NCBI RefSeq assembly: GCF_019703515.2
Contig: NC_059385.1
Coordinates: 27,880,001 to 27,944,000 of the forward strand
Source: Myxocyprinus asiaticus
Taxonomy: Eukaryota; Chordata; Actinopteri; Cypriniformes; Catostomidae
Direction of reading: 5' to 3'
Length of the DNA stretch: 64,000 nt
Shown here one piece after another: positions 21,020 to 53,943 of this stretch. Below the pieces are notes generated by a model. That model was given only the letters and a program-made list of their open reading frames with translations, was not told the DNA's origin and ran no database searches. Each line of letters begins with the position of its first letter. The first letter of the stretch is position 1. Made by a program: the position numbers and the translations under genes.

Positions 21020-21182
21020 TCACCTCCTGGCCTTCTTCCCTTTCATCAGTTTCTTGCTCTCCTCTCGTCTCCTCTTGTTGGCAGGGTTGCGTGGATCATA
21101 GATCTCGAATGTGTCTTCGTCTTGCATGTTGGCATCTTTTACCTTTCTGCTTTGTTCATCAAAGTGCATAACATGGGCCATC
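21020..21182 (-). pseudogene. Terminal coding exon of a cwc27-like gene (this exon intact)
   Basis: On the minus strand the exon begins after an acceptor (…tttgatttag) and ends with a TGA at 21020-21022. The first base completes a Trp codon begun by TG at the end of the previous exon. Fifty-three residues follow, including KVKDANMQDEDTFEIYDPR and NKRRREESKKLMK, a highly basic tail. I recognise this as the C-terminus of CWC27, a spliceosome-associated protein with an N-terminal cyclophilin-like domain that acts in activated spliceosomes in the nucleus. The exon has no lesion. Because three upstream exons are disrupted, a full-length product is not expected. Confidence 0.85.
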
Positions 21183-21329
21183 CTAAATCAAAATAGGAAA
21201 CAAAGCTCAGTTCAAAAGAACAGCGAAATGTAGCTCATGTGCCACTAAATCATCAAAATCAAAGTTAGAAGTGGTGGGAATTTCCCAGTGGAACGGATCA
21301 GACAAACAGGTGGTTTCACAACTACTTTA

Positions 21330-21372
21330 GAGGAACAGTTCACCCAAAAATGAAATTTACGACATCATTTAC
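21330..21372 (+). mobile_element. Short MITE fragment
   Basis: 'gaggaacagttcacccaaaa' followed by 'atgaaatttacgacatcattta' matches the left terminus of the TTAA-type MITE family. It is truncated after about 40 bases. Confidence 0.5.
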
Positions 21373-22233
21373 AGTATTCTCAGCATGAGATTCATGTCAA
21401 GACCCAAGAACTAATGCAGTATGGCAACACTGATGAAAAACCGTGCACCAAGTTCAAATATGTGTATGCAAGAATGAGATGTGAGATCTACGTTGGAGGG
21501 CAAGATTTTCAGTGAATACTTTTGTTTTGTGGTAGAAGTTTTTTTTTTTTTATCTTTTATGTTTACAGCAAATTACTTATATTAGGGCTGCACAATTATT
21601 CGAATAAATAATTGAGACTACAGTTACAGCTGACACAATTAACTAATTGTGAAAAGTGTCAATTACAGCATCCCACTGAGGTGGACTACTGATGCATCAA
21701 AATTTTGTAATTTATAATGTGTTTTTATAATTTATTTTTTTTTTTTACTTTTTGCATGTGTTGTTAAAGTCTAGTATGGCATTTACCAAATTACAGGGTT
21801 TACTGGTGCTACATCACCATGACTACAAAGATGTAAAATTGGATATAACTTTACGCAGATATGTTTAGCAAGCGATTTTATCACAATAAAATCATGTTAA
21901 CATGTATAGTTAATGTTTACTGCATGATTTAAATTTCACATGTGTTACCCTGATTAAGTGTTTAGTGTTTGTGTGAGTGACACTGATCACTGTCTCTATA
22001 TGTTTATTGGTCATTGCTCCTGGAAGGGCCACTATTGGTGAACTTCATGTCATCATGTGCCCTTCTGTAATTACTACGGTGATTAACAATACCTTATAAA
22101 GTAAAAAGCAGATTTGTACAGTTTCAGAAGGTTAATATCAAGTTTATGATGTTTTTTTTTGTTTTTTTTTTTACTGTAAATTTAACAGTTTTTTTTTTTT
22201 TTTTTTTTTTTTTTACAGTGCCATTGTGGTCAT

Positions 22234-24216
22234 TAGGGATGGGCGATACCACTTATGTTCTTTTCGATCCGATACCAATAATTTCAAGTCCAATATCGTC
22301 AATACCAATACCAACACCGATACTTCTATTAAATTTAATTTTTTTGTGATTACTTGGGATAAAATGGGTAATTTAAAATAATATTTTTAGTCATAATTCA
22401 AGTCATTATTATTTTATTTTTTTAGCCTAAACAGAAAATGATTCGACTTCTGTTTTGTTTACCCTTACAAAAATTAACCATTTCACTACAATAATTATAG
22501 TTTAACCATGGTATTTAGTTAAACCATAGTTACCACACAATTAACCATGGTTACTACTACAATATTACTGAAGTAAAACAATGGGTTCAGCACAAAAAAA
22601 AAAAACAAAAAAAAAAAACATGGTTACTACAATATTACTTTAGTAAAACCATGGTTAACTATTTTTTTAATTACTTATTAACAAATAGAATTGTCACCTT
22701 TAGATATGTTATTTTAGCATGAATTTACTCAAGAAGCAGTGGTGTAGTTGTGTCTGAAGAGGTGGGCATACTGTGAATTTATGAAAAACGCATGCACCCG
22801 CTCTCTAAAATTATTTACATTTATATACAGTTCATGTAAAAGTGTAAGAATTTTTTTTCCATTAAAATTGGGACTGTTGTAATTATAGTCCCACATAAAC
22901 TTACAATATGTATATCAGGGCAAGTTTCTTGCTGGCATGGTGTAGAGTACACTGCTAAGAACAATGGTATGGTAACTTCATGTTAAATATGTATTTAAAT
23001 TAATAGGTGTCATTAATGTTCCTTTTATTAGGCTACTATGAAAATTGTTAATACTTTATAATTATTCTAACTAATAAACTAAATCATAATATGCAATAAA
23101 CTGTAAAGCATTGTAGTTAATATGAGTAGTAATGTTCAAATTGACACGTTATCTTGTATTACCATATATAGCCTACATAAAAATTAATGGATATTTTTTT
23201 AATTTGTGTACTATTATGTGCTTTTCTGTGTATAGTGAAATTGTTGTCCTCCTTAGAAATATAAATTTAACTTATTTGATATCATGAGAAAAAGGCACCA
23301 CAGACAGCAGTAAAAGGCAAAAAAAAAAAAAAAAAAAAAAAAGAGCAGGGGTGCAATAACATGCAGTATTTTCACAAAGTTTAATTGCATAAGTTAAATT
23401 TATATGTATATACATGTACTTACGTTTAGCAGGGATATAAATATGCAGTGCAAATTATAATTTCTCCAGGGATGCTTGTGTATCAGACGCTGGAAATGTC
23501 CTGCCCCTTACTAAAACGGAAAATATGATTGGTTAGCAAATATCCAATCGCGTCTGAAATGAACGTTCTGATTGGTGGATCAGCTTAATCTGACTGTCCG
23601 TCTTGCCTGTGCTCCCCAGTGCATCTCCGTGTGCGTTTAGAGAGAATCTCTGCACATTTAAAAAAATTATAATAATAGAACACAATTCACTCAGCGGTGC
23701 TGCGGCATCACACTATTAGATTGAAAAAGTTCCGGGTCAAAAGCCTACTCGTTGTTCTGGCGGCCACACGTATCATCACTTATTTCAGGTGGGTATACGC
23801 AAAATCCTAAAACAGATAGGTGGGCATACTACGTATGACTGCGTATGCCCTAGACTACACGACCAGAAGCTGTTTCTCTGATTTTTCTATCATTACCTCT
23901 ACAAGGCACTGATCCCTCTTGTTTGAACAAGCCTTGAGACGGTGCAAGCGCTTATCAGCTTGTGTTTTTCAGCATTTATGAATGTTAAGATGAGTGGAAG
24001 AAGAAACAGTTTCCATCCTGCACAAGTATTTGCTAATATAGCCAAATCCATTTTATTGCACTTTGAAGGTTATGATTATTGTTCGTGGTAACCAAATAAT
24101 AATGTCCCAAGTTAAAAAAAGAAATAAATCATTTAGAATCTATATTTTTGTGTGAGGATCGATATTTTTGATACAACATCAGTATCGATACTTTAGGATC
24201 GATCCGCCCATCCCTA
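22234..24216. mobile_element. hAT-like non-autonomous transposon with 8-bp target duplication
   Basis: The ends are TAGGGATGGGCGATACC and, in complement, TAGGGATGGGCGGATCG, giving 12 identical terminal bases. The 8-bp direct repeat GTGGTCAT flanks it at 22226-22233 and 24217-24224. An 8-bp duplication is the hallmark of hAT transposition. The interior (1983 bp in total) has a polyA tract at about 23319-23342 and internal 'accatggtta' repeats at about 22475-22655, but no transposase. Confidence 0.88.
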
Positions 24217-24699
24217 GTGGTCATGAAAGTTTTAAACTGTCAAATTTACAGGTTGTTCTGTAAATTTGTTAAAATTCGTACTGTATTTTTTACAGAATTA
24301 TTCTGGCAACCACAGCTACAAGTTTTTTTTTTTGGAAAAACAACAGGATTTTTTTTGACATGGTATGTTGTCGTCTACTGATGACAAAATGTTATATATC
24401 CAATTTGTTATAGATCAGCTTTCTAATGACACCTAGATTGAGCTTCTAGTCCACTCAGAGGCCGAGATATTCGATGAAACAATGGGGGTGGTGCATGAAC
24501 TGAACATTAGACAGTGTCTATGGACCAGCACATCTCTGAGGGCTGAAATGCGTTATAGCGCCACCTACATTTCAGAACTGCATAATGTGATGGAAGGTGA
24601 GGAAAAACTTTTTTCTAGTACTTACTGCCATCTAGTGGAATAAAATAAGACTTTTTGGAGGGAGTAGGAGTAAACAGAACCAGAATCACATGCTTACAA

Positions 24700-25450
24700 A
24701 TTTGGGGAAAAAAAAATCTATTGATCATATGACTGTAGGCTCATAGTAAAGACTTTGACATTACAGTGAGTGTGTTATAAGACGGTATTAGCAGATCTGT
24801 TCACTTATGCTGATGTTATCAGGTGTGTAATCACTATCAAATTATGCTTTTCTCTTTTTAAGTGACTGTGATGATCATTTGCCTTGATTCTAATTCACAG
24901 TCTTCACATTTTCAATCAAATTACCATTTGTTTTTTACATAAAACTTCAACTAAATATGCATTACAATGTCGCTCTTCATTCCAGCCCATGTAAAAATAT
25001 TATCCATTCTGTTTGAGATTATTTTGCAAAAAACTGTGCCGTTCACGGCAATCTCCCAATAATTCCTATGGGGAGTTCTCCAGAGCTTTTCAGAGTGAGC
25101 AACTGTAACCAAAGGGGGCGGAGCTTAGCGAAGGTCAATTAGTTTTAAAAAACTAGTTACCACAGCTGTGACGAGGCTTCTAATACAGCTGCAGAGAGAG
25201 AGACAGAAAATGTGTCATCTTTCTTCTGACTGTCATAATCCACCGCTCTCTATTTTTTTCTTTATTTGAAAAGTTGTGGATATGTAATAGTGCCATTTTG
25301 CTTTTGATGTTGGAGCAAATGGATAAGCAAAAATTATTTTTGACATGGTCTCCCATTCACTGCTACTGAGGATTTCCCTGCAATCCTTTACTTCTGCGTT
25401 CCAAAACCTGGAATTGTGAAAAGGGTCCATATTACAGGAAATACTCAACA
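24700..25450. repeat. Dispersed repeat copy (full-length reference in this window)
   Basis: It contains 'gtaatcactatcaaattatg', 'tgccgttcacggcaatctcc' (the 'gccgttcacggc' part is nearly palindromic), 'gggggcggagcttagc' and 'gttggagcaaatgg.taagc'. The first part recurs at 52215-52603 and the last part at 56630-56870, both diverged. Non-coding. Confidence 0.6.
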
Positions 25451-26439
25451 GTTATGATTTCTGTCATAATCGTGCAGCCCTATCTTACTGAATAGTAAAA
25501 AAGAAAAAACTTTTATGCAGTTCTCTTTATCAACTAAATTAATTTTCTTTTAAGGACGTTTACATATTTTTACTGGAAACAAGACAAAGATACTTATTAG
25601 GACTTAAGTTTTGCTTTTCAGTTTAAATAATTTTTAGAATAATAATAATAAAAAAAACTTTATTGAAAAAGAAAGACATTTTTGCTCCCATTATAATAAT
25701 ATCTTGTAAAAACTACAAATAAACAAGGAATGTGAGTTGAAGGAAAAGAGGAAATGTGAGTGTTGCTTGCATGTGCAAAACATGCCGACACAACGCTAGT
25801 GTTTTGTAGAAGGTTGCCAGTGTGTTGCTAGGTGGTTGCTATACAAAGTATATGACATTATGCCTTCTACAGGGACAGTCCTCCTTTAGCAATCTAAGGT
25901 ATACAATGAAAATAGCTCCAGGATCACTTAGTGTGTTTGAACCTGCAACTTTTCTTTATTCATTATGCCTCACCACTCAGAAAAACAAATATAGCTACAT
26001 ACTGTTAGAACTATCACTTTCTTCACTCTTTTGGTGTTTCATAAAGAAATAAAGGTCATACACCAAAAGAGTACATAAGGTTGTCATTTAAGAAGTTTAT
26101 TACTAATTTAAAAAAAAAATTTTGAATACTATTTTATTTATATAGTATGTATGTGTTTGTGTGGGTAGATGTTGAGACATTTTATGTTACCACCAAACAC
26201 GAATATTGATAATATTTCTGTTACACAGCCCTTTGTACCCAAAAGTCCAACTTTTTAATGTGTTTGAAACCTTTTAGAATTTAATAAAATATAAATCAAC
26301 CATTTATTTAACCAAATTATTTATACAAATAGAATTAAAAAATAAGTAGTTTTACAAAGAATAAGCATCTAGATTTCACCTGGGTATTCATCAACGCCAT
26401 TACAGGGGGGAAAGGTTGCATATTTACATCTAGATAGAG

Positions 26440-26477
26440 CTTGCATCGTGTCGCACCTAGTTAGGACACGATGCAAG
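26440..26477. repeat. Perfect 13-bp inverted repeat (hairpin)
   Basis: CTTGCATCGTGTC at 26440-26452 is exactly complementary to GACACGATGCAAG at 26465-26477, with a 12-base loop. There is no T-run after it and no gene beside it. It could be the fused ends of a lost small transposon or chance. Confidence 0.6.
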
Positions 26478-27329
26478 TGAGAAAAGCATTCAAATTATTT
26501 GATTCCTGAGGTCATATTTAGAGACAAAATTTTGGAGCAGAGCTTTAATGAGATGCTCCAAAGTCCAGTGTGTTCACATCTCACCTCTGTTCTGCTGATC
26601 TACATTTCCTACTAAGAGGATGGCTGTCTGAATGAAGACATGGAAGCAACCCTTAAAGACACTTCAGTTGGGGTGAAATTGGTCTTTATTATACATCATG
26701 GACATAGTTGGATGATTCTCTGGGGTGTCATCTAAACAAACAAAAAAATAAGACGTAATAGGAACTGGTATTCCACACATGTTTGAGCAATTCTGGTGAA
26801 GGCCAGAACTTAAGGCAAGACGTTACTCCCAAGAATCCAAACCCGTAGCGCAGGTATCATACTGAACACATTGGCCTCCAAAGTCCAGGGCTGGTTTGAA
26901 TGAACAAGATGTGATGGGACGTTTCAATAATTCAACAAACTCCCAGCTGTCATTCAGTATGGTGCAACTTTTAATGGTTTCACAGAAGTGTCTCAGGAAG
27001 TAACTGGAGGAGCTGTAGCAACGGTTTTAAATTGAGCTGGTTGTTTGAGTCAAGACAAATTCATAAAGGAACTAAGAATTGAAGCAGGCTTCTCTTTAAA
27101 ATTATGAGCTTTTCAAAAGGCTCTTACTGGTAAGTTATCCACCATGCTGCTATTTTTGTGCCATCACAGAACCTTTCATTCAGCCAAAGAGAAATAAATT
27201 GAGTCTGGAAGTGTTTGCAACACATCCAGAAAGAATAAGGAAAGCCAATTGGGTTGACTTTAGAATAGGTGAATAATGCCAAAATTTGTAATTTCGGGTG
27301 AGCTATCCTTTTAAGTGTTTGAATAACTG

Positions 27330-27760
27330 TGTGTGCATGTTAGTATCCATTTGAAGTCCGTAGGAGATGTGACAGCTCATCTAGAATGTCATGGCTATAG
27401 TCTGGCAGACCCAGAGGACTCCCGCCACGCGAGGCAGCCGGCTCTGTTAATTTGTTTAGCAGTCTCTGTGATGACAACCCATCGGACTCCTCGTCCAGAG
27501 TTATGGCTTGCGCAAAAATCCCACCATTTGACTGGGACTCGTATTAGGGAGGGGCTGCCGCTCGGGCTCTGCCATGATGCGGAGGCCCTCGGAAGCCTCT
27601 TCCTGAATTTATTTTTCTTTCACTTTTGCGAAAGAGGGGAGGGTGGGAGCGGGCCCAGGCTCCTGGGCGAAAAGGGTTTTTGTAGACGGAGACACAGATG
27701 GAATAGTTTACAATCTGGCCCAGACTTGACTTCCAGTGTCTGACCTATTGTAACCCGTGT
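27330..27760. promoter_or_regulatory. Candidate conserved noncoding element, GC-rich
   Basis: Repeat-free sequence with much higher GC than its surroundings, located in the largest intron. The longest open frame (27333-27743, plus strand) gives a protein rich in Leu, Arg and His with no motif. There is no initiation context or splice signal that would make a gene model. Inference only. Confidence 0.2.
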
Positions 27761-27907
27761 TCCGTTCATGGGGTGCACTAGGCATTCAGAAAGTGGTACA
27801 GACTTCCCATTGCTGTTTTTCCAACACCGGGGGCCTCTTGTCTCTCCTCCCAGAAGTTGGGCTCAGGATTCCAGAGAGGGGCTCTGGCATCATCAGAGAC
27901 AAGAGAG

Positions 27908-31064: not shown

Positions 31065-31119
31065 TACATGTGATTTAGTGATGATTGTGACATGGTAAAT
31101 ATTTCATTTCTGTCGTCAT

Positions 31120-32225: not shown

Positions 32226-32808
32226 GATGTGTATGACTTTCTTTCTTCTGTAGAACACAAATTATGATTTTTAGAAGAATATTTCAGCTCTGTAAGTCCA
32301 TACAATGCAAGTGAATGAGTGCCAAAAATGTTATGCTCCAAAAAGCACATAAAGGCAGCATAAAAGTAATCCATAAGACTCCAGTGTTTTAATCCATTTC
32401 TTCAGAAGTTATATGATAGGTGTGGGTGAGAAACAAATCAATATTTAAGTAAATTTTTGCAAGAAATTCTTCTCCCTGCCCAGTAGGGGGCAGAATGCAT
32501 GAAGAATAAGAATCACCAAAAACAGAAGAAGAAGAAGAAAGTGATCTTTTTCTCACACACACTTATCAAATCACTTCTGAAAACATTGATTTAACCACTG
32601 GAGTCATATGGATTACTTTTATGCTGCCTTTATGTGATTTTTTGAGCTTCAAAATTTTGCCACCCATTCACTTGCACTGTATGGACCTACAGAGCTGAGA
32701 AATTCTGCTAAAAATCTGCAAATGAAAGAAAGTAATACAAATATGGGATGACATGAGGGTGAGTAAATGATGAGAGAATTTTCATTTTTGTGTGAAATAT
32801 CGCTTTAA
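32226..32808. mobile_element. Palindromic TTAA-type MITE, nearly complete
   Basis: The left arm has 'ctttctttcttctgtagaac', 'tccatacaatgcaagtgaat' and 'taggtgtgggtgagaaac'; the right arm has their complements in reverse order, closing with 'tttgtgtgaaatatcgctttaa'. The first roughly 40 bases of the left end are missing because it abuts another repeat at 32225. The centre contains '(gaa)n' at about 32526-32540. Confidence 0.7.
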
Positions 32809-33486
32809 ATTTTGAGTTGTTTCTCACCAAAACTATAGTATGTCTTTGGAAGATACATGGACACTTGGGATGGGCATTTTCAAGTAATTTGTAGTCAAGT
32901 ACTCTAATACACATTAAAAATAACATGCATGACACAAACCTGAAATTTATGTTTTGTTTTATTCACAAACATTACCAAAAACTTTTTCAAAATAAGACAA
33001 CTTAACCTATCCTTCTCTTTTGGGAAAAAAAATGAACAATATGCAATAAAAATGGAAAACAAAAAATATTTGAAAATAACAGCAAAAATATTTGCTTACA
33101 TAGAAACCAATAAGCTACTGACAGCATTGGGGTAATGCACATATATAAACTCGAGTCTACATAAAGGCTATCACATTTTTATAATATATAAACTCTTATA
33201 TATATATATATAAAATGTATTACTGTTTCGGAAGGAAATTCATGCAATTCTATGCAAAGGGTGGCTACTTTGAAGATGCTAAAATATAAATCACCCCAAC
33301 ACCTTATCCTTGAGTAATCATGCTAAATTGCTAATTTGGTACTAGAAAATCACTTGCCATTATATCAAACACAGTTGAAAGCTATTTGGTTAGTTAAATG
33401 AATTTTAACATTGTCTTTGTGTTTGTTTTTGAGTTGCCACAATATGCAATAGACTGGCATGTCTTAAGGTCAATATTAGGTCAAAA

Positions 33487-34147: not shown

Positions 34148-34285
34148 TTTAAGAAGTTCTGAACATTTTCTTTTCAAATTGTAATAGTAATTTTTCACAT
34201 TATTAATGTCTTGACTATACATTGTGATCAGTTGTATGCCAATTTCTTTCCATAAGAGCAAAATCTGTACATTATTCCAAACTTG

Positions 34286-34837
34286 CTTCCTTCCTTCTAC
34301 TCTGAGGATTGGTTTTTCCAGCAGGACAATGCTCCATGCCACACAGCCAGATCAATCAATGTGTGGATGGAGGACCACCAAATCAAGACCCTGTCATGGC
34401 CAGCCCAATCTCCAGACCTGAAACCCATTGAAAACCTCTGGAATGTGATCAAGAGGAAGATGGATGTCCACAAGCCATCAAACAAAGCCGAGCTACTTGA
34501 ATTTTTGCGCCAGGAGTGGCATAATGTCACCCAACAGCAATGTGAAAGACTGGTAGAGAGCATACCAAGACACATGAAAGCTGTGATTGAAAATCAGGGT
34601 TATTCCACCAAATATTGATTTCTGAAGTTAAAACATTAGTATTGTGTTGTTTAAGAATGAATATGAACTTGTTTTCTTTGCATTATTCGAGGTCTGAAAA
34701 CACTGCATCTTTTTTGTTAGTTTGACCAGTTGTCATTTTCTGCAAATAAATGCTCCAAATGACAATATTTTTATGTGGAATTTAGGAGATATGTTATCAG
34801 TACTTTATAGAATAAATAATATTTTTTTCCCAGAGCT
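34286..34837 (+). pseudogene. C-terminal half of a second, different Tc1-like transposase and its right end
   Basis: From about 34286 the frame reads DWFFQQDNAPCHTARS (second catalytic Asp), SPDLKPIENLW (catalytic Glu) and ends GYSTKY with TGA at 34616-34618. The sequence continues to a right terminus '…ttcccagagctg' at 34837 followed by TATA. The first half and the left terminus are absent. The start abuts the degenerate right end of the previous Tc1 relic ('gtacattattccaaact'), so the two are fused. The subfamily differs from both other transposases in the window. Confidence 0.85.
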
Positions 34838-35790: not shown

Positions 35791-35796
35791 ACTTAC

Positions 35797-35887
35797 CAGC
35801 CCTTATCGTCATCCTCGCCTAGTTCCTCGACATTTACTTCAGGAACCTCTGAGATTTGGATTTGAAGCGTTCCAAAAGGGTGAGCAT
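35797..35887 (-). pseudogene. Exon of the cwc27-like gene with a one-base deletion
   Basis: On the minus strand it starts after acceptor '…cctctaaag' at 35887 and ends …AAGGGCTG before the donor gtaagt at 35796. Phase 0 from the previous exon gives MLTLLERFKSK, matching the CWC27 motif TLALLNxFKSK. The frame then fails: from SEVPEVNVEELGEDDDKGW onward the correct product is read one frame over. The exon is 91 bases; 92 would keep both ends in phase, so one base is missing near 35853-35856. In the original frame a TAA follows at 35834-35836. The acidic segment and terminal Trp fit the family. Confidence 0.85.
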
Positions 35888-36167: not shown

Positions 36168-37136
36168 AGAGACCGACCGATATTAAAGGGATAGTTCACC
36201 CCAAAATGAAAAATGTCTCATCATTTACTCACCCTCATGCCATCCCAGATGTGTGTGACTTTCTTTCTTCTGCAGAAGACACAAGAAAGTTTTTAGAAGA
36301 ATATTTCATCTCTGTTGGTCCATACAATGCAAGTGAATGGTGACCAGAACTTTGAAGGCCCAAAATGCAGTATAAAAATAATCCATAACACTCCAGTGGC
36401 TTAATCCTTGTCTTCAGAAGCGATATGATAGGTGTGGGCGAGAAACAGATCAATATTTAAGACCATTTTTAACTGTAAATCTACACTTTCACTTTCACAT
36501 TCAGCCACCTACTAGTCAGGGCTGGTCGAAGGTGGAGACTGATAGTAAAACGGACTTAAATATTGATCTGTTTCTCACATACACCTATCATATTGCTTCA
36601 GAAAATATGGATTTAACCATTGGTGTCATATGGATTACTTTTATGCCTCCTTTATGTCATTTTTGGACTTTCTAAGTTCTGGTCACCATTCACTTGCATT
36701 GTATGGACCAACAGAGCTGAGATATTCTTCTAAAAATCTTTGTGTTCTGCAGAAGAAAGTAAGTCATATACATCTGGGATGACTTGAGGGTGAGTAAATG
36801 AGACAATTTTCATTTTTGGGTGAACTATCCCTTTAATGGTTTTTAATGACCAAAACGATACTGATTATTTTTGTGATTAAGTGTCCGATAACCGACATGC
36901 ATAACTGATTTGTTTTATTTCTGCTCTTAGGCACATTTATAACTAATCTCTGCTTTACAAAACTATTATTGCGCAGTCTATAAATAATAAATTTGACTAG
37001 TTTTAATTGCAATATACACTAGTTCAAAGCTCAAAGTTCTAATTAATATTTTAAAATGTAAAGTCTTGTCTTACATTTCCCCGATATTTACATAGTGTAA
37101 ATATCTGTTCAAATTATCGGTCTCTGTCGATCTCTA
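36168..37136. mobile_element. 'tagagaccgaccgata' element, host of a MITE
   Basis: TAGAGACCGACCGATA at 36168 faces '…tatcggtctctgtcgatctcta' ending at 37136, imperfect inverted repeats. It contains a TTAA-flanked MITE. On either side, the outer MITE sequence resumes ('agtgatcaatacaac' … 'ttccaaggcttctgaag'), as comparison with 38500-38570 shows. Non-coding. Confidence 0.6.
36183..36836. mobile_element. Complete palindromic TTAA-flanked MITE (ANGEL-like)
   Basis: TTAA at 36183-36186 and 36833-36836 bracket AGGGATAGTTCACC and its complement GGTGAACTATCCCT. The arms are complementary over some 290 bases each, with shared words such as 'tccatacaatgcaagtgaat' and its complement. At 654 bp it is a full copy. 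Non-coding. Confidence 0.88.
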
Positions 37137-37379: not shown

Positions 37380-37489
37380 CTGAGCCTCTCGACCAGATCC
37401 CTTCTTCAGTTTCTGCTTCCTCATGTCCTCGTACTTCTTCCCGCTCTACAGGTATTCAGCCACTGCCTCAATGGATGGCTTACTGTCAC
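37380..37489 (-). pseudogene. Exon of the cwc27-like gene with an in-frame TAG
   Basis: On the minus strand it runs from acceptor '…gtcttaaag' to donor CAG|gtaagatt. The first two bases complete a Gly codon started by the previous exon. It reads DSKPSIEAVAEYL, then TAG (37446-37448), then SGKKYEDMRKQKLKKGSGR and EAQ. The known family has Glu/Lys-rich residues (EExxKYEAL) at the stop position, so GAG to TAG is a likely change. Length (110) and phase (2 + 36 codons) are otherwise intact. Confidence 0.85.
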
Positions 37490-38727: not shown

Positions 38728-38729
<2 letters not shown>

Positions 38730-38780: not shown

Positions 38781-38783
<3 letters not shown>

Positions 38784-39016: not shown

Positions 39017-40432
39017 CAGTTGTGCTCAAAAGTTTGCATACCCTGGCAGAAATTGTGAAATTTTGGCATTGATTTTGAAAATATGACAGATCATGCAAAA
39101 AAACTTTTTAGGATAGTGATCATATGAAGCCATTTATTGTCACATAGTTGTCTGGCTCCTTTTTAAATCATAATGAAAACAGAAATCACCAAATGGCCCT
39201 GATCAAAAGTTTACATACTCTTGAATGTTTGGCCACACAAGGTGACACACACAGGTTTAAATGGCAATTAAAGGTTAATTTCCCACACCTGTGGCTTTTT
39301 AAATCCAAAGCCTTGAAAATGCCAGTCAGTACTGTTCAATCACTTATTAAGAAGTGGAAAATTCAAGGATCTCTTTATACCAAGCCAAGGTCAGGTAGAT
39401 CAAGAAAAATTTCAGCCACAATTGCCAGAAGAATTGTTCGGGATACAAAGAAAAACCCACAGGTAACCTCAGGAGAAATACAGGCTGCTCTGGAAAAAGA
39501 CGGTGTGGCTGTTTCAAGGAGCACAATACCACGATACTTGAACAAAAATGAGCTGCATGGTCGAGTTGCCAGAAAGAAGCCTTTACTGCGGCAATGCCAC
39601 AAAAAAGCCCGGTTACAATATGCCCAACAACACCTTGACACGCCTCAGCTTCTGGCACACTGTGATTTATGGTCACAACCATAAGTGCTATGTTTGGAAA
39701 GGGGTCAACAAGGCCTATATTGAAAAGAATACCATCCCCACTGTGAAGCATGGTGGTGGATCACTGATGATTTGGGGGTATGTGAGCTCTAAAGGCACGG
39801 GAATCTTGTGAAAATTGATGACAAGATGAATGCAGCATGTTATCAGAAAATACTGGCAGCCAATTTGCATTCTTCTGTACGAAAGCTGCGGATGGGACGC
39901 ACTTGGACTTTCCAGCATGACAATGACCCTAAGCACAAGGCCAAGTTGACCCTCCAGTGGTTACAGCAGAAAAAGGTGAAGGTTCTGGAGTGGTCATCAC
40001 AGTCTCCTGACCTTAATATCATTGAGCCACTCTGGGGAGATCTCAAACGTGTGGTTCATGCAAGATGACCAAAGACTTTGCATGACCTGGAGGCATTTTG
40101 CCAAGACGAATGGGCAGCTATACCTCCTGCAAGAAATTGGGGCCTCATAGACAACTACTACAAAAGACTGCATGCTGTCATTGACACTAAAGGGGGCAAT
40201 ACACAGTATTAAAAACTAAGGGTATGCAGACTTTTGAACAGGGGTCATTTCATTTTTTTCTTTGTTGCCATGTTTTGTTTTATGATTGTGCCATTCTGTT
40301 ATAACCAACAGTTGAATATGAATCCCATAAGAAATAAAAGAAATGTGTTTTGCCTGCTCATTCATGTTTTCTTTAAAAATGGTACATATATTACCAATTC
40401 TCCAAGGGTATGCAAACTTTTGAGCACAACTG
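39017..40432 (+). mobile_element. Tc1-like transposon, complete ends
   Basis: CAGTTGTGCTCAAAAGTTTG at 39017 and the complement 'caaacttttgagcacaactg' ending 40432 are perfect 20-base terminal repeats. TA flanks lie at 39015-39016 and 40433-40434. Length is 1416 bp. It carries a damaged transposase on the plus strand. A relative lies at 43781. The ends differ from those of the 4562-6613 element, so this is a different Tc1 subfamily. Confidence 0.93.
39320..40212 (+). pseudogene. Damaged Tc1-like transposase lacking the first catalytic Asp
   Basis: The N-terminal part reads KMPVSTVQSLIKKWK and SGRSRKISATIARRIV, then [16 protein letters not shown], the paired-type DNA-binding region. The start of the first helix-turn-helix is missing. 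At about 39650-39675 a deletion of roughly 30 bases removes the WSDETKIE motif, as the sister copy at about 44520 shows, and shifts the frame. The second half retains [11 protein letters not shown] (second Asp) and [14 protein letters not shown] (Glu). A stop (TGA, about 40066) interrupts near the end before NTQY with TAA at 40210-40212. It is inactive. Confidence 0.87.
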
Positions 40433-41445
40433 TAGCTGATCATACCAATACTTAAAAAATGCTTTTTAATTTGCTGACAAATTAGAACTGTTTTGTTTTC
40501 CTTTTTTGCAAATTTGTCACAACAAATATATTAAGAGTTGGTAAAGCCATAAAAAAGATGAAATAGCCATGTGTTATATATCAATTTGTAGAATGCAATG
40601 AGCAAATTTGTTTCACTCAGAGGCCAAACTGCAGTGAGTATTAGTGTACAAAAGTCCCACTGACACATATAAATATAATCAACAGAAGTGTCTTTTCGTC
40701 ATGTTTTTCATTTTTACTTCCCGAAACATCCATACAACATAGATGAATGACATATCGTAACTTACAGCAGTCTATCCCGATTCTAACGAGCCCAAACGCA
40801 ACATAATAAGTAGGTCTTGAAATATTCCTCAAAGATATGGAAAAACAATGCACAAGAGGGTGCTCAACACATGATGTGTGTGTCCGAGGACTTCTGCAAA
40901 CAGGCATCCACATACTGTATGTGCTCATCTAAAGGACTGGGATGCTCCTGAACCCTTGATATTTCTGTATTTTGTAGTCTAATCCAATCATTTCCAATGG
41001 CCGGTCATTTTTGACCAGGACACAACAAGTGTAACAAAGTGAAACAAAACAAATAAAATGTAAAGAAAATGGTCCATATTTTTTTGTGGTTTCAGATACC
41101 ATATGTGAACAAAGGAATTTTATTTCAATTGGATTAAGTAAAAAAAAAAAATTGTAAGGGTTACATACAACATAAGGGTTAAATCAGAAGACTTACAATA
41201 TGGTGCATGAGTTGTATAGATTACTTTTACAGTGGTTTTATGGTGTTTTTATTTTATCCTTTTTCAAACTTGACAGACTGGAATCACTATGTACTTGCAT
41301 TATATGGCAAATAAACCCTGTGAAGACTTCCTAAAAATTCACCTTTTGTCTTCCTCGGAAGAAATAAAGTCATATGGGTTTGGAGAGACTTTAGGGTGAG
41401 AAAATAATTACAGAATTTTCCTTTTTGGGTGAACTATTCCTTTAA

Positions 41446-43084
41446 TCAGAATGTCTTATTCCTTGAAATTTAATCAGAAATGTTACTGTACCAACTGGAG
41501 AAGTGTCTAAAAATGAAGTATATTCTCCAAATCCCACAGTAGAATTGCAAGAATTGGAAAAGTCAATATCAAGGCTTTGCTGTTGATATTGGTGTCTACA
41601 GGCATTAATGTGCCACTACAAATTCCCCGGCTCAGACGTGCTGGCACTGATGTCAAAGTGTGCCCAACGCTGCTTTAACTTTACCTGGCCTCATGGCAAC
41701 TTTGACTGAATGCTTCACCACGACAAGCTCAAGAGGAACAAACTACATCAGACGGAGCCTCCAACATCGGTGATTTATGTCATTTTAGCACTGTCATGTA
41801 ACGAAAAAAAAATTTCCCCTCACAGATGTAACATTTGTTTATTCTTTGTATTTATGGCACACTGAAAACCACATTGGAGAGAGGCTGGAAATTTATTTTT
41901 CAGAAACAGAGAGAGAGGGCGAGTGAGAGACATGCATTGGTTTGAAAGCCACGGCTTGGAGCTGGCTATGTTTGCAAATGTTTAGTCTGGGACATGAGCT
42001 AATAGAAAACTAGAAAGACAGAAAGAACGTAATGAGCCAAAGACTATTAAAACACATTGACTGTGTAGAAATTGAGCACTTCTTTTCGAATATATAAAAA
42101 ACAGGACTGCCAATGTGAGCTGAAAGCGTGTTTATTATGGCCACAGTCCAGACTATAAAGATAGGGCTGTATGGCAATATCAATGTCCTTTGATCAGACA
42201 AGAATGTTTGCGTTCTTTCAGTTGTTTGTGCGTGCTGTGCATATGTCCATGTGAAGCGGGAATAAATACTGCTGCATTTGTTTAAAGATTATTTACTTTT
42301 GCTTATTGACCATTGCATTTGGATTTACTTGACAAATTATCTTTAAGAATGACTATGACTGCAACTTTACTACTACTACGGTAGTGTGATAGTATGGATA
42401 CGGAATCTACCAGCAGGTTCTACTTCTAACTGGACCATGCTAACCAGCCACACCCTGATATCATGGTCATCATCACCTCACTAAACCTCTACAGCTCTGG
42501 CCACTTTATAGTTTTTCACTTTCAAGAGGACATGAAATCAAAATTTACCCTATTTACTTGATAAATACATGCTTTGTTTCAAACCGTGCATGATTCAGCA
42601 TAGGGGTAGGCGATATACGGATAGTTTCTATCCCTGTTGTCCAATACGCCTTCACATGTTTTCTGTTTCCTAATGTCATCATTTTCCAAAGTTTGTGGTA
42701 CTTGAGAGCATTTTCTAAAGTCTTCTTTTTGGTGGAGAAAAATGCTGTTCCAGTGTGTATAAGGACAGGAGTAAACATGACAAAATCAATGCATTTTCAA
42801 CCAAAATATTATTAGTGTTGACGTGGCCTAAATAATAGCGTGTATTTATTTCTAGTATAAAGATGCCAAAAAGTGTTCCAGTATCTAATGGAAAGCTAAA
42901 TTTAAAACAAGAAATTGGGTAAACACATGCGTGTTGGAGAGGCCTGATTCAGAATCAAAACTAATGCTTAATGTTCAACTAAAGAGATGGCTGACGTTTT
43001 GCTTGGACTGAAAAATGCAGCCTGCTCTCCTGATCTCATGAAAATTACATGACTGCAAAATTTTTGGGACATGAAATTACGTGG
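41446..43084. other. Intronic stretch, no gene seen
   Basis: Partly repeat-poor. Bases 41620-41780 are GC-balanced and could be conserved. A short '...tagggctgtatggcaata' at about 42163 resembles a transposon end without a partner. No splice-flanked exon. Confidence 0.35.
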
Positions 43085-43780: not shown

Positions 43781-44645
43781 CAGTTGTGCTCAAAGTTTGC
43801 ATATCCTGGCAGAAATTGTGAAATTTTGGCATTGATTTTGAAAATATGACTGATCATGCAAAAAAAAACAAAAAAAAACGGTCTTTTATTTATGGATAGT
43901 GATCATATGAAGCCATTTATTATCACACAGTTGTTTACACACCCCTGAATGTTTGGCCTTGTTACAGACCCACAAGGTGACACACACAGGTATGGCAATT
44001 AAAGGTTAATTTCCCACACCTGTGGCTTTTTAAATTGCAATTAGTGTCTGTGTATAAATAGTCAATGAGTTTGTTAGCTCTCACATGGATGCACTGAGCA
44101 GGCTAGATACTGAGCTATGGGGAGCAGAAAAGAACTGTCAAAAGACCTGCGTAACAAGGTATTGGAACTTTATAAAGATGCCTTGAAAATGCCAGTCAGT
44201 ACTGTTCAATCACTTATTAAGAAGTGGAAAAACTGGGGATCTCAGGTAGACCAAGAAAGATTTCAGCCAAAACTGCCAGAAGAATTGTTCGGGATACAAA
44301 GAAAAATCCACAGGTTAACCTCAGGAGAAATACAGGCTGCTCTGGAAAAAGACGGTGTGGTTGTTTCAAGGAGCACAATACGACAATTCTTGAACAAAAA
44401 TGAGCTGCATGGTCGAGTTGCCAGAAAGAAGCCTTTACTGCGCCAATGCCACAAAAAAGCCCGGTTACAATATGCCCGACAACACCTTGACACACCTCAC
44501 AGCTTCTGGCACACTGTAATTTGGAGTGACGAGACCAAAATAGAGCTTTATGGTCACAACCATAAGTGCTATGTTTGGAGAGGGGTCAACAAGGCCTATA
44601 GTGAAAAGAATACCATCCCCACTGTGAAGCATGTTTGTGGCTCAC
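43781..44645 (+). mobile_element. Truncated Tc1-like transposon (sister of 39017-40432)
   Basis: It starts after TA 43779-43780 with CAGTTGTGCTCAAAGTTTGC and parallels 39017-40432, including 'gcattgattttgaaaatatg'. It stops near 44645 inside the transposase. There is no second half and no right terminal repeat; the sequence continues into an unrelated repeat. The 5' UTR 'tataaatagtcaatgagtt' has a TATA-like word. Confidence 0.85.
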
Positions 44646-44869
44646 TATATAAAAAACATCCAGTGAGCAGCAGTTCTGTGGACGGAAACGCCTTGTTGAT
44701 GAGAGAGGTCAACAGAGAATGGCCAGACTGGTTCAAACTGACAAAGTCTACGGTAACTCAGATAACCGCTCTGTACGATTGTGGTGAGAAGAATATAATC
44801 TCAGAATGCTATTCTGAGATGCGGGTTGGCGCTGTTTTGGTTGCACAAGGGGGACCTACACAATATTAA
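44117..44869 (+). pseudogene. Chimeric open frame: Tc1 transposase N-part fused to another repeat
   Basis: A 250-codon frame. Residues 1 to about 176 are Tc1-like: MGSRKELSKDLRNKVLELY (with a short deletion before ALKMPVST), [35 protein letters not shown] (first catalytic Asp present) and NTIPTVKH. From about residue 177 (near 44645) the sequence comes from a different dispersed repeat that happens to stay open and ends GGPTQY. The second Asp and the Glu are missing, so it cannot be an active transposase. Expression is not implied. Confidence 0.8.
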
Positions 44870-44905
44870 GCAGGTGGTTTTAATGTTGTGACTGATCGGT
44901 GTATA
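44646..44905 (-). mobile_element. Fragment of a different dispersed repeat ending 'ctgatcggtgta'
   Basis: It contains 'catccagtgagcagcagttc', 'gagaggtcaacagagaatgg', 'ctcagataaccgctctg' and the terminus 'gttgtgactgatcggtgta'. In other fish this sequence is a familiar interspersed repeat (from memory; family name not certain). Only one terminus is present and it abuts the truncated Tc1. Confidence 0.6.
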
Positions 44906-46277: not shown

Positions 46278-46294
46278 AACAATTGCATTATTTT

Positions 46295-46741: not shown

Positions 46742-47245
46742 AACAATTGCATTATTTTCACTCCAGAGCTTTTGTTGCAAAACTAAAGTTCATCTTGTTA
46801 GCGTCTCCCTCACCAGCCCTCACCAGGAACTGAGGCATCCATGCATGGATATGTTCCATTGTGTATTCATACTTAAGGCTTAAATGTACGTAGGCCTATC
46901 TAATTTACGGATGGCTCCCAATGGTCTGCCAACAACTGAATAGTAGATTAATGAGGTCAACTAATTTATCTTGTTTTTCCTAATGTTTATGTTTAGTTTT
47001 TATATTTTTAGTGGCATCGCTTGATTTAATGTGCTGACAGTATGCTGTGCTTTAGCTGTTAGACTGCTTGCACGATAGAACCCTCTCGTATTCCCTTCAA
47101 AGCATCACACGGCCACAGCCATAAACATTCAGATGGATGTCTTGGGCTGTTGCATTGCATCCCACACTGTTTTTTGCATTGTAACTACGACAAGGATGCA
47201 CCTTTTGTAAACATCCTCTGAGAAGTGTAAACTACATGGGCTTTC

Positions 47246-47896
47246 TTAAAGGAATATTTCACCCAAAAATTACAATTATCTCATTTACTCACCATCATGT
47301 CATCCCATGTGTATGACTTTCTTTCATCTGCTGAACTCAAATTAAGATTTTTAGAAGAATTTCTCAGCTCTTTTAGACCATACAATGCAAGTGAATGGGT
47401 GCCAAAATTTTGAAGCTCCAAAAACCACATAAATCAGCATAAAGGTAATCCATAAGACTCCAGTGGTTAAATCAATGTCTTCAGAAGCAATATGATAGGT
47501 GTGGGTGAGAAACAGATAACTTTTACTTTCTTCTTCTTGTGTTTTTGGTGATTAACATTCTTCATGCATATCGCCCCCTACTGGGCAGGGAGAATATTTT
47601 CTAGAAAAAAGGACTTCATTTTTGATCTGTTTCTCACCCACACCTCTCATATCATTTCTGAAATATGGATTAAAACACTGGAGTCGTATGGACTACTTTT
47701 ATGCTGCCTTTATGTGCTTTTTGAAGCTTCAAAAGTTTGGCACCCATTCAATTGCATTGTATAAACCTACAGAGCTGAAATATTCTGCTAAAAATCATAA
47801 TTTGTGTTCTGCAAAAGAAAGACATTCACATCTGGGATGGCATGAGGGTGTGTAAATGATGAGAGAATTATTATTTTAGGTGTACTATTCCTTTAA
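47246..47896. mobile_element. Complete palindromic TTAA-flanked MITE (ANGEL-like)
   Basis: TTAA at 47246-47249 and 47893-47896. Arms start 'aggaatatttcacccaaaa' and close with the complement '…taggtgtactattcc'. The internal family words 'tccatacaatgcaagtgaatggg'-like and 'ataggtgtgggtgagaaaca' lie in inverted order. The centre carries 'catatcgccccctactgggc'. 651 bp, non-coding. Confidence 0.87.
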
Positions 47897-48826
47897 GACC
47901 GATTATATAGGATGGAAAATATATTTGAGGACACAATTGCCTTTGATACAATAAAAGCATAACTTGCAAATGCGTTTCGGTCTTACTACTTTTTTTATGC
48001 ACATCAACAGGTTTGACTGACAAGGCGCCATTGAAATAAAACTCCCTGTGTACACACGCATAACCTTTATAAATAACTCAGAGTGGTAGAAAGAATGTTG
48101 CCACATCATTTAGGGTGGGTATAAAATGGACAGTGTTTTTAGCATGTCTTTCTTATTTTTGGCTCTCATGAATGACAGCCATGCCAAGAAAGAGAAAACC
48201 AGACTAGAAGAACATGCTATAATTTATGTCTTGAAAATTGAAGAGATGTCTGTCGAAAATAATAATTCTAAAAATGGTACAAATGGCTTCTAGTTTTGTT
48301 GGTCAGTTGCGGAGGAGACAATTGGCTTCTTCCTAAAATAAGATACAATATGCTAAGAGAGTGGAGTGCAGTTATTAGAGAGATAAATGTGTTTGCTTCT
48401 GGGACTGAACAGAAAGCTGGAAGTGGTCCTTGTGGACACATGAACCACAGAGGAGCGGACTCAAACACAAACACTGAGATTAGGAGGTGGGACCAGATGA
48501 CTAAATGGCAAGAAAGCCAACTTTCACTTTAGCAGAGCGATGGAGGCAGAGCACAGGCAGAACAACAGGTTTTAAATGAATGACTTGGAATGTCTATTTC
48601 TCGTATTTTGTTGATAATTAAAATGAAAAGCTCTCCCAAAAATGAAAATTCTGCCATTATATTTCATGTAAGCTTTTTGAACTCATATGGCTCAGTTTTT
48701 TCAATTTTCGTGAGAACACTAATCGTGAGAACACTAATCCTAAGCGCAATTTTCATGCCAGCGCAATGTGCAAGTCTGTAAAGAACTTGTCTCATGTCTG
48801 GGAGCGACAGCGCGTCTCACACAGTT
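47897..48826. other. Intronic stretch with a short MITE fragment
   Basis: Bases 48605-48660 ('ctctcccaaaaatgaaaatt', 'ctgccattat') are a MITE-end fragment. At 48715-48740 the phrase 'cgtgagaacactaatc' is tandemly repeated twice. Otherwise featureless; no exon. Confidence 0.4.
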
Positions 48827-48834
48827 CTGGGAGC

Positions 48835-49938
48835 TAGGGCTGGGTGATAGGACGATGTTATCGGATATAGATGATGTCTTACAAAGATGCCGAATGTGGC
48901 ACTCAATTGACAGATGATGATTGACAATATCGGGAAATGGCAAAACCATGGATCTGAGAAGTCACCAAATGGGCTTTATTAAACAGTGGTCAGGGTGTGA
49001 ATCTAGGACCCACCACACGCCAAATGCGATGAGGCTGAATCCAGTTCGCAAACTCCTCGTCCAAAAATGTCCGGGTAATTTTGCTCATCTACTTGCAACA
49101 GGCAGGCGACCTGTAAGATGTCTCGGAGTGACACATGACAAAAGAAATGCTGTTAGTCACAAAGACACGCACTTGAAGAAACAAACATTATTATATTTTT
49201 AAGAACAGATGAAAGAAAAGCCGTCAATACCCGTGTCTAATTCGTTGTTTGTTCAGAGACGTGCAAATGATCTCCGATCATCTCGGGAGGTGCTGTGAGG
49301 TTTAGTTCGCTTTATTTCCACGGACCAGTTCGCGGTTAACATGCATTGTTATAGAAACAAAGATGAAAGAGATTAATTCATAATATAATACAAGACACGT
49401 TCACCTTGAACCTAAACTTGAGTTCTATTTTCTTTTCTTTAGGCAGCATTTACTGTATTACCAAAACACAATACAAACACATATTTGATAAGAACACACA
49501 TTTGGCAGCATTATTTTGGGAACACCAGGGAATTTATTAGGCTTTACTGTTATTATTATTATCTTTACATTTATAATTGTCTTTAGCTCTTAATCTGTAT
49601 GCTATTAGTAATTTTCCAACAGTTGCTGTTGAAGGATGCTTGCGTGATAGCAAGTGAGCCGTTGGAGACGGTAAATGTTTGGATTTGAGGAGGTGGTTAA
49701 ATAAGATTTTTTGATCACTTCATATTTTTATTTTTTTCGTTTAAAGTGCAATTTGAATTTAGAAACATCTTTTATGTTTTTCTTGTTTCGATAAATGAAT
49801 TTAATTTTTAAAGCAAAATCAAAAAAGCTAAAATATTCACTGACCCTCGGCAGGGGGGTTGATGATATAATCGTATATACTGCGATATTTTTTAAGGTAA
49901 TTATCAATAAAATATTTTTTACATATCGCCCAGCCCTA
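48835..49938. mobile_element. hAT-like non-autonomous element with 8-bp duplication
   Basis: The ends are TAGGGCTGGGTGATAGG and, in complement, TAGGGCTGGGCGATATG. The direct octamer CTGGGAGC flanks it at 48827-48834 and 49939-49946, exact. At 1104 bp without a transposase frame it is non-autonomous. The terminal motif is close to, but distinct from, the TAGGGATGGGCG element at 22234. Confidence 0.88.
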
Positions 49939-49946
49939 CTGGGAGC

Positions 49947-52214
49947 ACTATGTTTGTGCGTTCCTCCATCCAGATATTTTTCAAAAGTGTCAATAATCTT
50001 TCACTAGTTTCAAGTTACATCTCATCCCCACTTGCATCCAAAATTCTAAATGCCGAGTAATTTTTTGTTACTACACACACGAGAATCAATGTCATTTTGG
50101 CATCAATGACATCGATTCAGTCTGCTCCTCACACAAAACTATCAAGACTTGGAATATAGTGCATGAGTCATTTAGACTGTTTTGGTAAATTTATAGTGCT
50201 TTTAGTCCTTTTTGGAGCTTGACAGCTGTGGTCAATATGTGTCAAAGAGTTGAGAAATGATTCTTCAAAAATTCCACTAAAAAAATAACAGCATTTAGGT
50301 TTGAAATGAAATGAGGGTGAGTAAATAAATCTTTTTTGGGCAAACTTTTCTTTTAATACCAAAAAGGAACCACCAAATAATTGACAACCATAAAAAAGTT
50401 CTATCATTTTTAAAAAAACAATTATTTTTTTTTAACAAACAGTACTTAGCCTAGGCCTATCAATATCACAAATATCATTCCTGTGAGGCAGTTATTTTTA
50501 TAAGTCTCATGTTTTTTCATGGTTTTGACAATTCCTGCCACTGCCTCACCAATAATTAAATAAATATACAAATATCAGCATATTTTTCAAGTAGTGGCTG
50601 GAGGATTTAATAGGTGTCTTTTACATTTGACAGAATCTGTCTTAGACAATCACCAAAAAAGCCCTCAAAAACCCCAAACTGACAGTCTTTAAACATACCC
50701 ATACTCTGTCAGCATTACCATTTGTAACACTTCCATTTTTATTTGTTTATTTGAATTTTTTTCACACATACAAAGGCTGGTCACTCCACATTTCCCACAA
50801 AAATGTGGATAATGTCAACACCATGCTGGCGTTAGTGACTGTTTAGAGTTTAACTGTCATAGTTCCAACTGAAGAGCCAATGATTTTGAAGAGAATGAAA
50901 ATAGTAAGAGAAAATGTTGTCCTGTACTATTGTGTATCTGCATAACACTGGAACAGAATGAACTAGATAATTACATTTTCAGAAGAAAATGTGAGTGGTG
51001 CTTGTCCAGACAAAACTTACCATCACAATGCAAAGGTCCCAAGATGTGGCTCGGGCCCCTCCAATGATATAAATCTATGGAATTTTTTCAATGGCTTAAT
51101 AATGATTTCGGGGCAGAACAATCTATTTGTCAACCAATGGAAGACAGGAGGAGTGTTTGGGGAAACCTGTTTGAACAATCAGTATTTTTACAATTCTGTT
51201 TGGTGAAGCTAGCAAAATTACAAACCTTTCGCCTTTCCGAAATAAGTCCGATTATTCCATGATGACTAATTTCATTTAGTTTTTCTGACTAATTTAACAA
51301 AACCTGAAGATATTCAAGTTATCTCTTTGCAATTATTTTTTATGATAAAAAAATATCATTGCTAAAGAAAGTAGCTATAAAACTTGCTTTGGCTGCACCA
51401 AGTGCAAATACCACATTCCAGGCCGAACGATAGCCATTAAAACAGAATAGGGTGAGGGGACACACCTTTGCCCTCTGAGAGCACACAATGTGAAGACAGT
51501 GATATACAACAGGGCCATTACGAAGCTTAACAGAGGTCAAAGGGTTGTCAGTGCAAATCTCAAGCATGCAGTAATCCTCACAGGAAGTACATCAGAAATC
51601 GTTGAGCCAGGACAAAGAGACAAAAAAATGGTCTTTACACAGTGAAATGAAATTTTCTTAGTCTCTACATCAATGGATGTAAGTTTAGGGAAGACTAGGG
51701 CTAGATGTCACACAGACAGGTAGTCACAAGTGTACATAAGTGACTATGAGGTTTTCGGTCAGTTACAAAATTTGAATTACACAAATGCTTGTTTTCTCCA
51801 GCAGTGACTTTGCATAGCAGTTTCAAACACTTACTACAATTGACCCTTCACTAAGCCCCGCCTTAAAAGTGTTTGGGACCAATCCTGTCTTAGCAACTGC
51901 TGCCAGGCTGCCATTACTCTGATATGGGTTTGCTATTTTCCAATGAAAGTCTACGGTAGTGGAGTAGTTTTAAGCAGGATTTTATCAAAATTATCCAAAA
52001 AATTCGTAAAAGTGACATGAGGTACCCAGAGAGGATAAACACAGTGTTTTTCTTTCTTTAAAAATTAAAACAATAAATAAAATAACAGTCAAGAAGGGCA
52101 TGCTATGTATTATACTGCCCTCATTATCAAATGAGCATGATTAACAATAACATGAGGACACCTACATTTCCTCCAAGGTAAATTAAAGCTAATGTCTAAA
52201 CATTAATTCATTTA
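49947..52214. other. Intronic stretch with one MITE half
   Basis: Contains the MITE half at 50120-50356. The remainder, including the balanced stretch 51840-51960, shows no exon with consistent splice signals. Confidence 0.4.
50120..50356 (-). mobile_element. Partial TTAA-type MITE (one half)
   Basis: 'tcctcacacaaaactatcaag', 'acttggaatatagtgcatg', 'tttttggagcttgacagc', 'atgagggtgagtaaata' and a terminal 'gggcaaacttttcttttaa' (TTAA 50353-50356). The partner half is absent. Confidence 0.65.
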
Positions 52215-52603
52215 CGTATTAATTCAAGTCTTAGTAAAGGTGATTTATAAGCAGTTCTGTTCACTTACATTAATATTATCAAGTGTGTAATCGCTATCAT
52301 ATGACACTTTTCTCTCTTCAAGTGACTGTGATAATCGTTTTTCTTTATTCTGATTCAGTCTCTGCAGTTATCAATCAAATTACAGTGTAAGTTAACGATT
52401 TCTGTTACAAAAAACATTTACAATGTCACTATTCATTCCAGCCCACTTGAGAATATTACTGATTCCATTTATGAGAATATTTCATGAAAAAACTTGCCGT
52501 TCACGGCAATCTCCCATTCATTCCAATAGGGAGTTCTGCAGAGCATGTCAGAGCGACCATAACCAAGGGGGGCGGAGCTTAGCAAAGGGTCAATTGTCTC
52601 ATA
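52215..52603. repeat. Partial copy of the 24700-25450 dispersed repeat
   Basis: It shares 'agtgactgtgataatcg', 'caatcaaattacag', 'tgccgttcacggcaatctcc' and 'ggggcggagcttagc' in the same order as 24830-25130. The final part of the family is not here; it occurs alone at 56630-56870. Non-coding. Confidence 0.6.
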
Positions 52604-53848
52604 TATGACAATCTTTGTGAATTCTATCCTTAAAGTTCCAAAATCATATTTTTGCTATAGCTGTTGAGTAAATAAATGAACACATTTAAAATCACACGGG
52701 CATACAGCACATTAACAGCTTAACTATATCATGAAGGTAGACTTTAACCAAAAGGTTAAACTGCGTTCTTTGGGTAAGGGTATTTTTCATAAATGTTAGA
52801 TTGGGACAGGTTGTAAGATGTGTAAGACATTTTACAGTTCCTGAACTGTTTTGTGCATATTTACCATTTATATATATATTTTAGTGAACAACACCGATAG
52901 TCAATGAAACTTTATTTCAATGAATAAAGTTTGTATGCTTTCAGGAGACAACTTTTATGATACTTTTATAGTGCTTTTTTGTCCTTTCTAATGCACGACT
53001 GTGACATGCCTTAATAAAATTCCTAATTTTTCTTTGCAATTTAGTCTTTAAGGTGGGCAACTCTTTTCCGGACCAGGGGATGCTCCTCCTTGATAATTTC
53101 TCTAGGTTTGGTCCTCTTTGATTTTGTTTGGGGGGGGGGGGTGGTGTCATAAGTTGACCCGGCCATAGCCTCATCCATATTTTTCAGCTGTAGCTCTTCT
53201 TCTTTTCCATTCAGTACAAGCCTATGTTGTATATTGTCAAGAATGATGTCTCATTTTACTATGAGCACGAGTTTGTGCGAGAGCAGAATTTCGTGTTCGT
53301 AACATCAGTCTGGAAGAAGAATGATGTTGTAATTGGTGCACACTGGTCTTTGAATTTTTGTGTACACTGAACAGGAAACTGTGAGTCTTTAAACGTGCAA
53401 CTTGAGATGGATCACATTGGTCGGCTAGTTATCCAACAACCAACTACTCGATTAGTGAGGTCAACATATAGATTTTCCACCGGCTTGTTGATTTTGACAT
53501 AATTTAGTTTTGCACATCCCTAGTGTCTTGTAATGTGTGTTCGGCCTTAATGTCATCCAAAAACTCTCAAAGCCAACACTTGTTGGACCGGTTTTCCAAA
53601 AACACATGGTTTCTGCTATTTTGGATGTTAAAAGTCAATCCTGATGTAGAAAGATGACTTATGTCCATGTTGACTTGATTTTGGGAGAGGTTGGCAAATT
53701 TTCATTACACCATGTGTGCGAAACCAATTACGCTATCACGGTTAAATGAGAACAAAACATGACATCTCAAAGAATACTTGTAATTTTACAGAGCCTTTTC
53801 AAATACTATCAATTAAACAGCTTGTGATTATGTGGCACAGACACTCAC
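52604..53848. other. Intronic stretch upstream of the acceptor side, no gene seen
   Basis: A G-run of 10 lies at about 53131-53140. At 53400-53525 there is a diverged 'actagt'-rich repeat ending 'tgcacatccctag', resembling the ends of the 27908-29083 element. No additional exon. Confidence 0.4.
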
Positions 53849-53943
53849 CCTCACTGTCAGCCTCCTTCACACCCTCTTCTTTTCACTGTTTGATTGCAAA
53901 CAACTCTTTCTTCAGCTGGCGAGCTTCTTTTCGCAATTCATCA
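53849..53943 (-). pseudogene. Exon of the cwc27-like gene with an in-frame TGA
   Basis: On the minus strand it runs from acceptor '…ggctttccacag' to donor GAGG|gtgagtg. After one phase-completing base it reads DELRKEARQLKKELFAIKQ, then TGA (53883-53885), then KEEGVKEADSE. The Lys/Glu-rich coiled-coil-like segment with ELRKEARQLK is characteristic of the CWC27 linker downstream of its cyclophilin domain. The final base pairs with GT of the next exon to make Gly. Length (1 + 31 codons + 1) is consistent. An AGA-to-TGA change would explain the stop. Upstream exons lie outside the window. Confidence 0.85.

Follow-up and report, generated by a model that had tools for sequence, protein, structure and literature searches.

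Suckers (Catostomidae) share a genome doubling (PMC8412299), and the closest described counterparts of the locus reported here are duplicated genes of these fishes. In suckers, RAG1, RAG2, and IRBP2 are each represented by a copy that contains indels and unexpected stops, and the two copies form sister clades (PMC11673241). Among the papers listed by a literature search on cwc27 pseudogenes, none dealt with fish, judged by title.

We have analyzed a window of 64,000 nucleotides (the whole stretch of DNA under study, to which all coordinates below refer) that contains exons of cwc27. The window probably includes the 3' portion of a cwc27 pseudogene of the non-processed type, most likely a homeologue derived from the sucker whole-genome duplication. 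As in a non-processed duplicated pseudogene, introns are kept and disabling lesions are present in comparison with intact relatives. Processed pseudogenes are also disabled copies of coding genes, but the cwc27 locus in the window differs from them in keeping its introns. By analogy, the locus would fit the known sucker pattern of one decayed copy, of which it would be an ordinary, further example. It appears similar to the sucker Copy II of RAG1, RAG2, and IRBP2 in that one copy in a tetraploid is decayed and the other one is more constrained (PMC11673241). It differs from them in that both copies of those genes are described in that text as recovered in some species, whereas the intact partner of the window copy is known from relatives only.

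Homology of the locus to CWC27

Four cwc27 exons were located on the minus strand, all of them flanked by AG/GT borders and with compatible phases:

53849..53943, minus strand: cwc27 exon, human residues 313 to ~346; 95 nt; acceptor CCACAG, donor GTGAGT
37380..37489, minus strand: cwc27 exon; 110 nt; acceptor TTAAAG, donor GTAAGA
35797..35887, minus strand: cwc27 exon; 91 nt; acceptor TCTAAAG, donor GTAAGT
21020..21182, minus strand: cwc27 terminal exon, open to its own TGA, with a KGKKARR ending as in both sucker proteins

The four-exon read-through product matched residues 314-472 of human CWC27 (5z56_z) with an E value of 9.3e-46, and residues 60-111 of the same query matched 6yvh_C, indicating that the conserved CWC27 C-terminal region is present. 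We take 6yvh_C to be the entry from the CWC27/CWC22 heterodimer study of Busetto et al. In tblastn searches using human CWC27, residues 313-347 were aligned to 53945-53844, residues 349-384 to 37487-37380, and residues 420-472 to 21181-21023, while residues 386-395 and 400-419 flanked position 35855. The same four exons were recovered with the sucker protein P0121 (E values of 3e-26, 8e-13, 4e-10, and 3e-6). A chance match to CWC27 was ruled out by the E values, the exon order, and the strand. These results, obtained with both human and fish queries, agree with the initial annotation of this DNA regarding the canonical splice sites and phases of the four exons, the assignment of their product to the C-terminal region of CWC27, and the intact terminal exon. 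They do not agree with its statement that the exons keep exact lengths: in comparison with the Myxocyprinus protein, exon 35797-35887 is approximately 22 nt short, and exon 53849-53943 is one codon shorter than in both sucker proteins.

As calculated from the exon coordinates, introns of approximately 16.4, 1.5, and 14.6 kb are kept between the exons. Since introns are retained, the locus is not a retrocopy, as had already been proposed, and a processed pseudogene is ruled out. The C-terminal region is arranged in four ordered exons, as in human CWC27 and in the proteins of Myxocyprinus asiaticus (P0121) and Xyrauchen texanus (P0122). These two sucker proteins are the closest ones among the matches listed (best 120 of 638), each with 84% identity (residues 313-466) and with the same KGKKARR motif. 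Unlike a functional CWC27 gene, the window contains two premature stops, a 13-nt frame break, and seven private replacements. For CWC27 residues 1-312, including the N-terminal cyclophilin (PPIase) domain, tblastn against the whole window gave nothing better than E 1; cwc27 sequence upstream of exon 53849-53943 falls beyond the window.

Disabling lesions

The open reading frame through the CWC27 C-terminal region is broken by two stop codons and a frame break:

53883..53885, minus strand: in-frame premature TGA; Arg in 107/109 related rows; 235 nt upstream of the last exon junction
37446..37448, minus strand: in-frame premature TAG; Glu in 101/109 related rows; 157 nt upstream of the last exon junction
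35854..35855, minus strand: inferred breakpoint of a 13-nt frame-breaking loss, placed by protein alignment; position +/- one base

Both stops had been noticed before, in exons 53849-53943 and 37380-37489, and both were verified as being in frame at the Arg and Glu sites. The third lesion had been described as the absence of one base from exon 35797-35887. This was ruled out by a KLSSAI-like block, of which the window lacks a part and which is filled in 109/109 related rows. What the protein alignment implies instead is that 13 nt are gone between a Lys and the following Ile-Ser-Glu, breaking the frame, and that a spacer near this loss falls short of the Myxocyprinus one by 9 nt, in frame, as it is also short in many other rows. 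The exon is thereby 91 nt long versus 113 nt expected in Myxocyprinus, the latter length being inferred from protein and not from DNA. The 9-nt difference and the 3-nt difference in exon 53849-53943 were not counted as lesions because their spacers vary among related proteins. Lesion columns were scored against a protein alignment of 109 rows, after leaving out 12 of 121 proteins in which the cutting motif was unmatched at the expected place, an omission that may inflate the apparent constancy of the columns near that motif. The 109 rows are not independent of each other: human is among them, as are unnamed lgn rows and several isoforms and strains of a single species.

Comparison with 12 cypriniform rows revealed 11 private residues in the window, two of them alignment effects at the deletion. 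The remaining nine private changes correspond to seven replacements and the two stops, and seven of these nine (five replacements and two stops) are located at columns where the 12 cypriniform rows agree. Two of these replacement columns, constant in the 12 cypriniform rows, vary among the 109 rows. The window departs from the alignment at 7 of 78 near-invariant columns, three of the seven being at the deletion; 83 of the 109 database rows depart at none of them, and the highest numbers of departures among the 109 rows were found in human (12) and P0239 (6).

Intact splice sites and phases, together with an open terminal exon, would also be expected from a working cwc27 gene whose damage came only from sequencing or assembly errors. 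The Myxocyprinus assembly was obtained from Nanopore reads and polished with Illumina reads (PMC8412299), which would be relevant if the window derives from it. Nevertheless, this explanation seems very unlikely to us: it needs two stop-making substitutions and the loss of 13 nt, all in 296 bases of exon sequence, and the gene has, besides, the five private replacements at columns where 12/12 cypriniform rows agree. Point errors are an unlikely cause because one of the lesions is a multi-base loss in a block filled in all 109 rows. In addition, the window reaches 89% at best to the sucker proteins over 150 columns, and therefore it did not arise from the misreading of either one. Base errors in a real gene, which the initial annotation had offered as an alternative, were thus kept only as a weak rival, the 13-nt loss and the seven private replacements counting against them.

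Predicted consequences of the premature stops

Messages with a stop codon far before the last exon junction generally undergo nonsense-mediated decay. Since both stops are located far upstream of this junction (235 nt in the case of the TGA), any message from the locus is expected to be degraded in this way. The first stop (TGA) corresponds to residue 333 of human CWC27; a protein from the locus, if made, would be devoid of the stretch seen in 6yvh_C. Published reports describe a patient homozygous for CWC27 A356fs and mice with Cwc27 K338fs, all of which live, with retinal disease. They also describe CWC27 E315Ter, nearer the position of the first stop, as homozygous and syndromic, and a mouse Cwc27 hypomorph as having reduced viability. 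The core-spliceosome role of CWC27 had been considered to make the loss of a sole copy unlikely. This argument is too strong for a C-terminal truncation because the A356fs patient and the K338fs mice live, although the mouse hypomorph is less viable. A duplicate copy is the simplest reason for the presence of three lesions.

The proximity of the first stop to the viable mouse K338fs and human A356fs frameshifts is also consistent with a locus that still yields a shortened CWC27, with the cyclophilin domain and ending in exon 53849-53943, either as a hypomorph or as a specialized short paralogue. The upstream exons, being outside the window, may be intact. We consider this highly improbable, given the message decay expected from a stop 235 nt before the last junction and the absence of any short sucker CWC27 among the matches listed (best 120 of 1432) for the full-length Myxocyprinus query. 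That the locus is a cyclophilin-only CWC27 paralogue, with a tetraploid fish keeping two forms, one full-length and one short, between which the roles are divided, appears extremely improbable.

Relationship to sucker cwc27 genes

Protein searches were evaluated on the best 120 of 4075, 638, and 1432 matches. After the two suckers, the next proteins among the matches listed (best 120 of 638) were those of Labeo, Sinocyclocheilus, and others. There was one CWC27 row per sucker species among the matches listed (best 120 of 638, and best 120 of 1432 with the Myxocyprinus query); a second sucker copy could be concealed in one of the clusters formed at 90% (that of P0123, for example, has 38 members), or rank below the best 120 matches. 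The Gly of the KGKKARR ending is present only in the window and the two suckers (2/109 rows). At another position the window has kept an Asp (67/109 rows) where both suckers carry Ile (2/109), a pattern that would fit a divergence before the split between Myxocyprinus and Xyrauchen, or a non-sucker origin. Similarly, the window has a His (20/109 rows), as in most cyprinids shown, where both suckers carry Gln, which may reflect a copy leaving the sucker line before these two species split, or a non-sucker copy.

A tree of 29 rows was constructed, 28 of them database rows chosen by hand. In the best tree, the window adjoins the two suckers with weak support (72/47), and its branch is 0.145 long versus 0.039 for the stem of the sucker pair. 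Constraining the window to group with cyprinids (p 0.45), to group with loaches (p 0.35), or to fall inside the sucker pair (p 0.27) was not rejected, and its grouping with characiforms was rejected (p 0.023). Since the cyprinid, loach, and inside-pair placements are not rejected, the assignment to suckers from these sequences stays a best guess, not proven.

The groupings with cyprinids or loaches, which were not rejected, and the His common to the window and most cyprinids shown, would be compatible with a different decaying duplicate, either segmental or homeologous; in the latter case, the fish would be some other tetraploid member of the Cypriniformes, such as a cyprinine or a botiid. Polyploidy is also reported for botiid loaches, common carp, and goldfish. 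Against this possibility, which we regard as unlikely, stand the Gly of the KGKKARR ending, otherwise present only in the two suckers among the 109 rows, and the fact that both the best tree and the best hits among the matches listed are sucker. The proposal in the initial annotation that a duplicate was lost after genome duplication is thus retained as the best reading. Its comparison with tetraploid cyprinids has to be modified, since the nearest relatives among the matches listed are suckers, even if cyprinids and loaches were not rejected.

Indications of relaxed selection and probable timing of the loss

In all 20 relative-rate comparisons, which overlap, the window had more private changes than the sucker copy, with p<0.05 in two of the 20. 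The excess of stops among the changes was not significant (P 0.075). According to PMC8412299, the peak of the sucker duplication is at Ks 0.184, equivalent to 0.092 per copy. With approximately 292 nonsynonymous sites, about 27 changes would be expected in a copy free since the doubling versus nine seen (Poisson P 6e-5), a rough estimate because the site count omits those codons of exon 35797-35887 that follow the frame break. Given this deficit, either the decay is recent or the premise of the dating is wrong. If the family assignment is right, selection would have maintained the copy during a large part of this period, and its death would be late. The best reading is that the sucker genome doubling was followed only fairly late by the conversion of this copy into a pseudogene.

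According to the mechanism that we propose, the sucker whole-genome duplication would have generated two homeologous cwc27 copies. The partner copy would have stayed intact and done the work, and selection on the copy in the window would have been relaxed. This relaxed copy could then have gained the two stops, the 13-nt frame-breaking loss, and several replacements, at a stage in which its exon borders and phases would not yet have decayed. In this case, cwc27, which encodes a spliceosome factor for which disease truncations are known, would be one more gene among the duplicates probably lost after the sucker doubling and would again be present as a single copy. If dated across several sucker species, these lesions could help to time the span of duplicate loss after the doubling.

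Surroundings of the locus

ADAMTS6 is, we assume, the expected neighbor of cwc27; a thrombospondin motif scan of the window did not find an ADAMTS6-type neighbor. Partial scans of the window (this motif scan and ten open frames) recognized no neighbor gene. There were no Rfam matches at gathering scores and no tRNAs (bacterial settings) in the window. The ten open frames, chosen from many in the window, were compared with Pfam: five had no match and the other five had transposase matches, one of these five below the curated cut-off only. One of the scanned frames also showed a DNA_Packaging_2 match below cut-off.

Repeats and Transposase Pieces in the Window

Five transposase pieces were located in the window, and in four of them the curated Pfam cut-off was exceeded, the exception being 6004-6321. 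These pieces probably derive from Tc1-type elements.

4788-5252, transposase piece, Pfam match above curated cut-off
6004-6321, transposase piece, weak Pfam match only
34256-34615, transposase piece, Pfam match above curated cut-off
39148-39681, transposase piece, Pfam match above curated cut-off
44114-44866, transposase piece, Pfam match above curated cut-off

Six repeat copies (32234-32818, 36183-36836, 47246-47880, 3048-3275, 41345-41452, and 58952-59045), lying for the most part in introns, were approximately 75-90% alike and in opposite orientations (among 25 of 30 pairs listed), and probably represent one or more short mobile elements. By eye, the open frames at 60644-61485 had the appearance of a non-LTR retrotransposon ORF2 end; a Pfam search of these frames gave zero matches.

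A perfect inverted repeat was also observed at 15574-17125, with arms 100% complementary and spaced by 326 nt. It is either a mobile element of the foldback type, young and with long termini, or an artefact of assembly in which the sequence was duplicated in inverted orientation.

15574-16186, inverted-repeat arm, 613 nt
16513-17125, inverted-repeat arm, 613 nt

CWC27 Models of Other Fish

Inspection by eye of five database CWC27 models from Sinocyclocheilus and common carp (P0124, P0130, P0148, P0166, and P0239) revealed a cyclophilin domain partly absent or replaced. Either the genes were poorly modelled, or these are additional copies undergoing decay in lineages that are tetraploid, as Sinocyclocheilus is.
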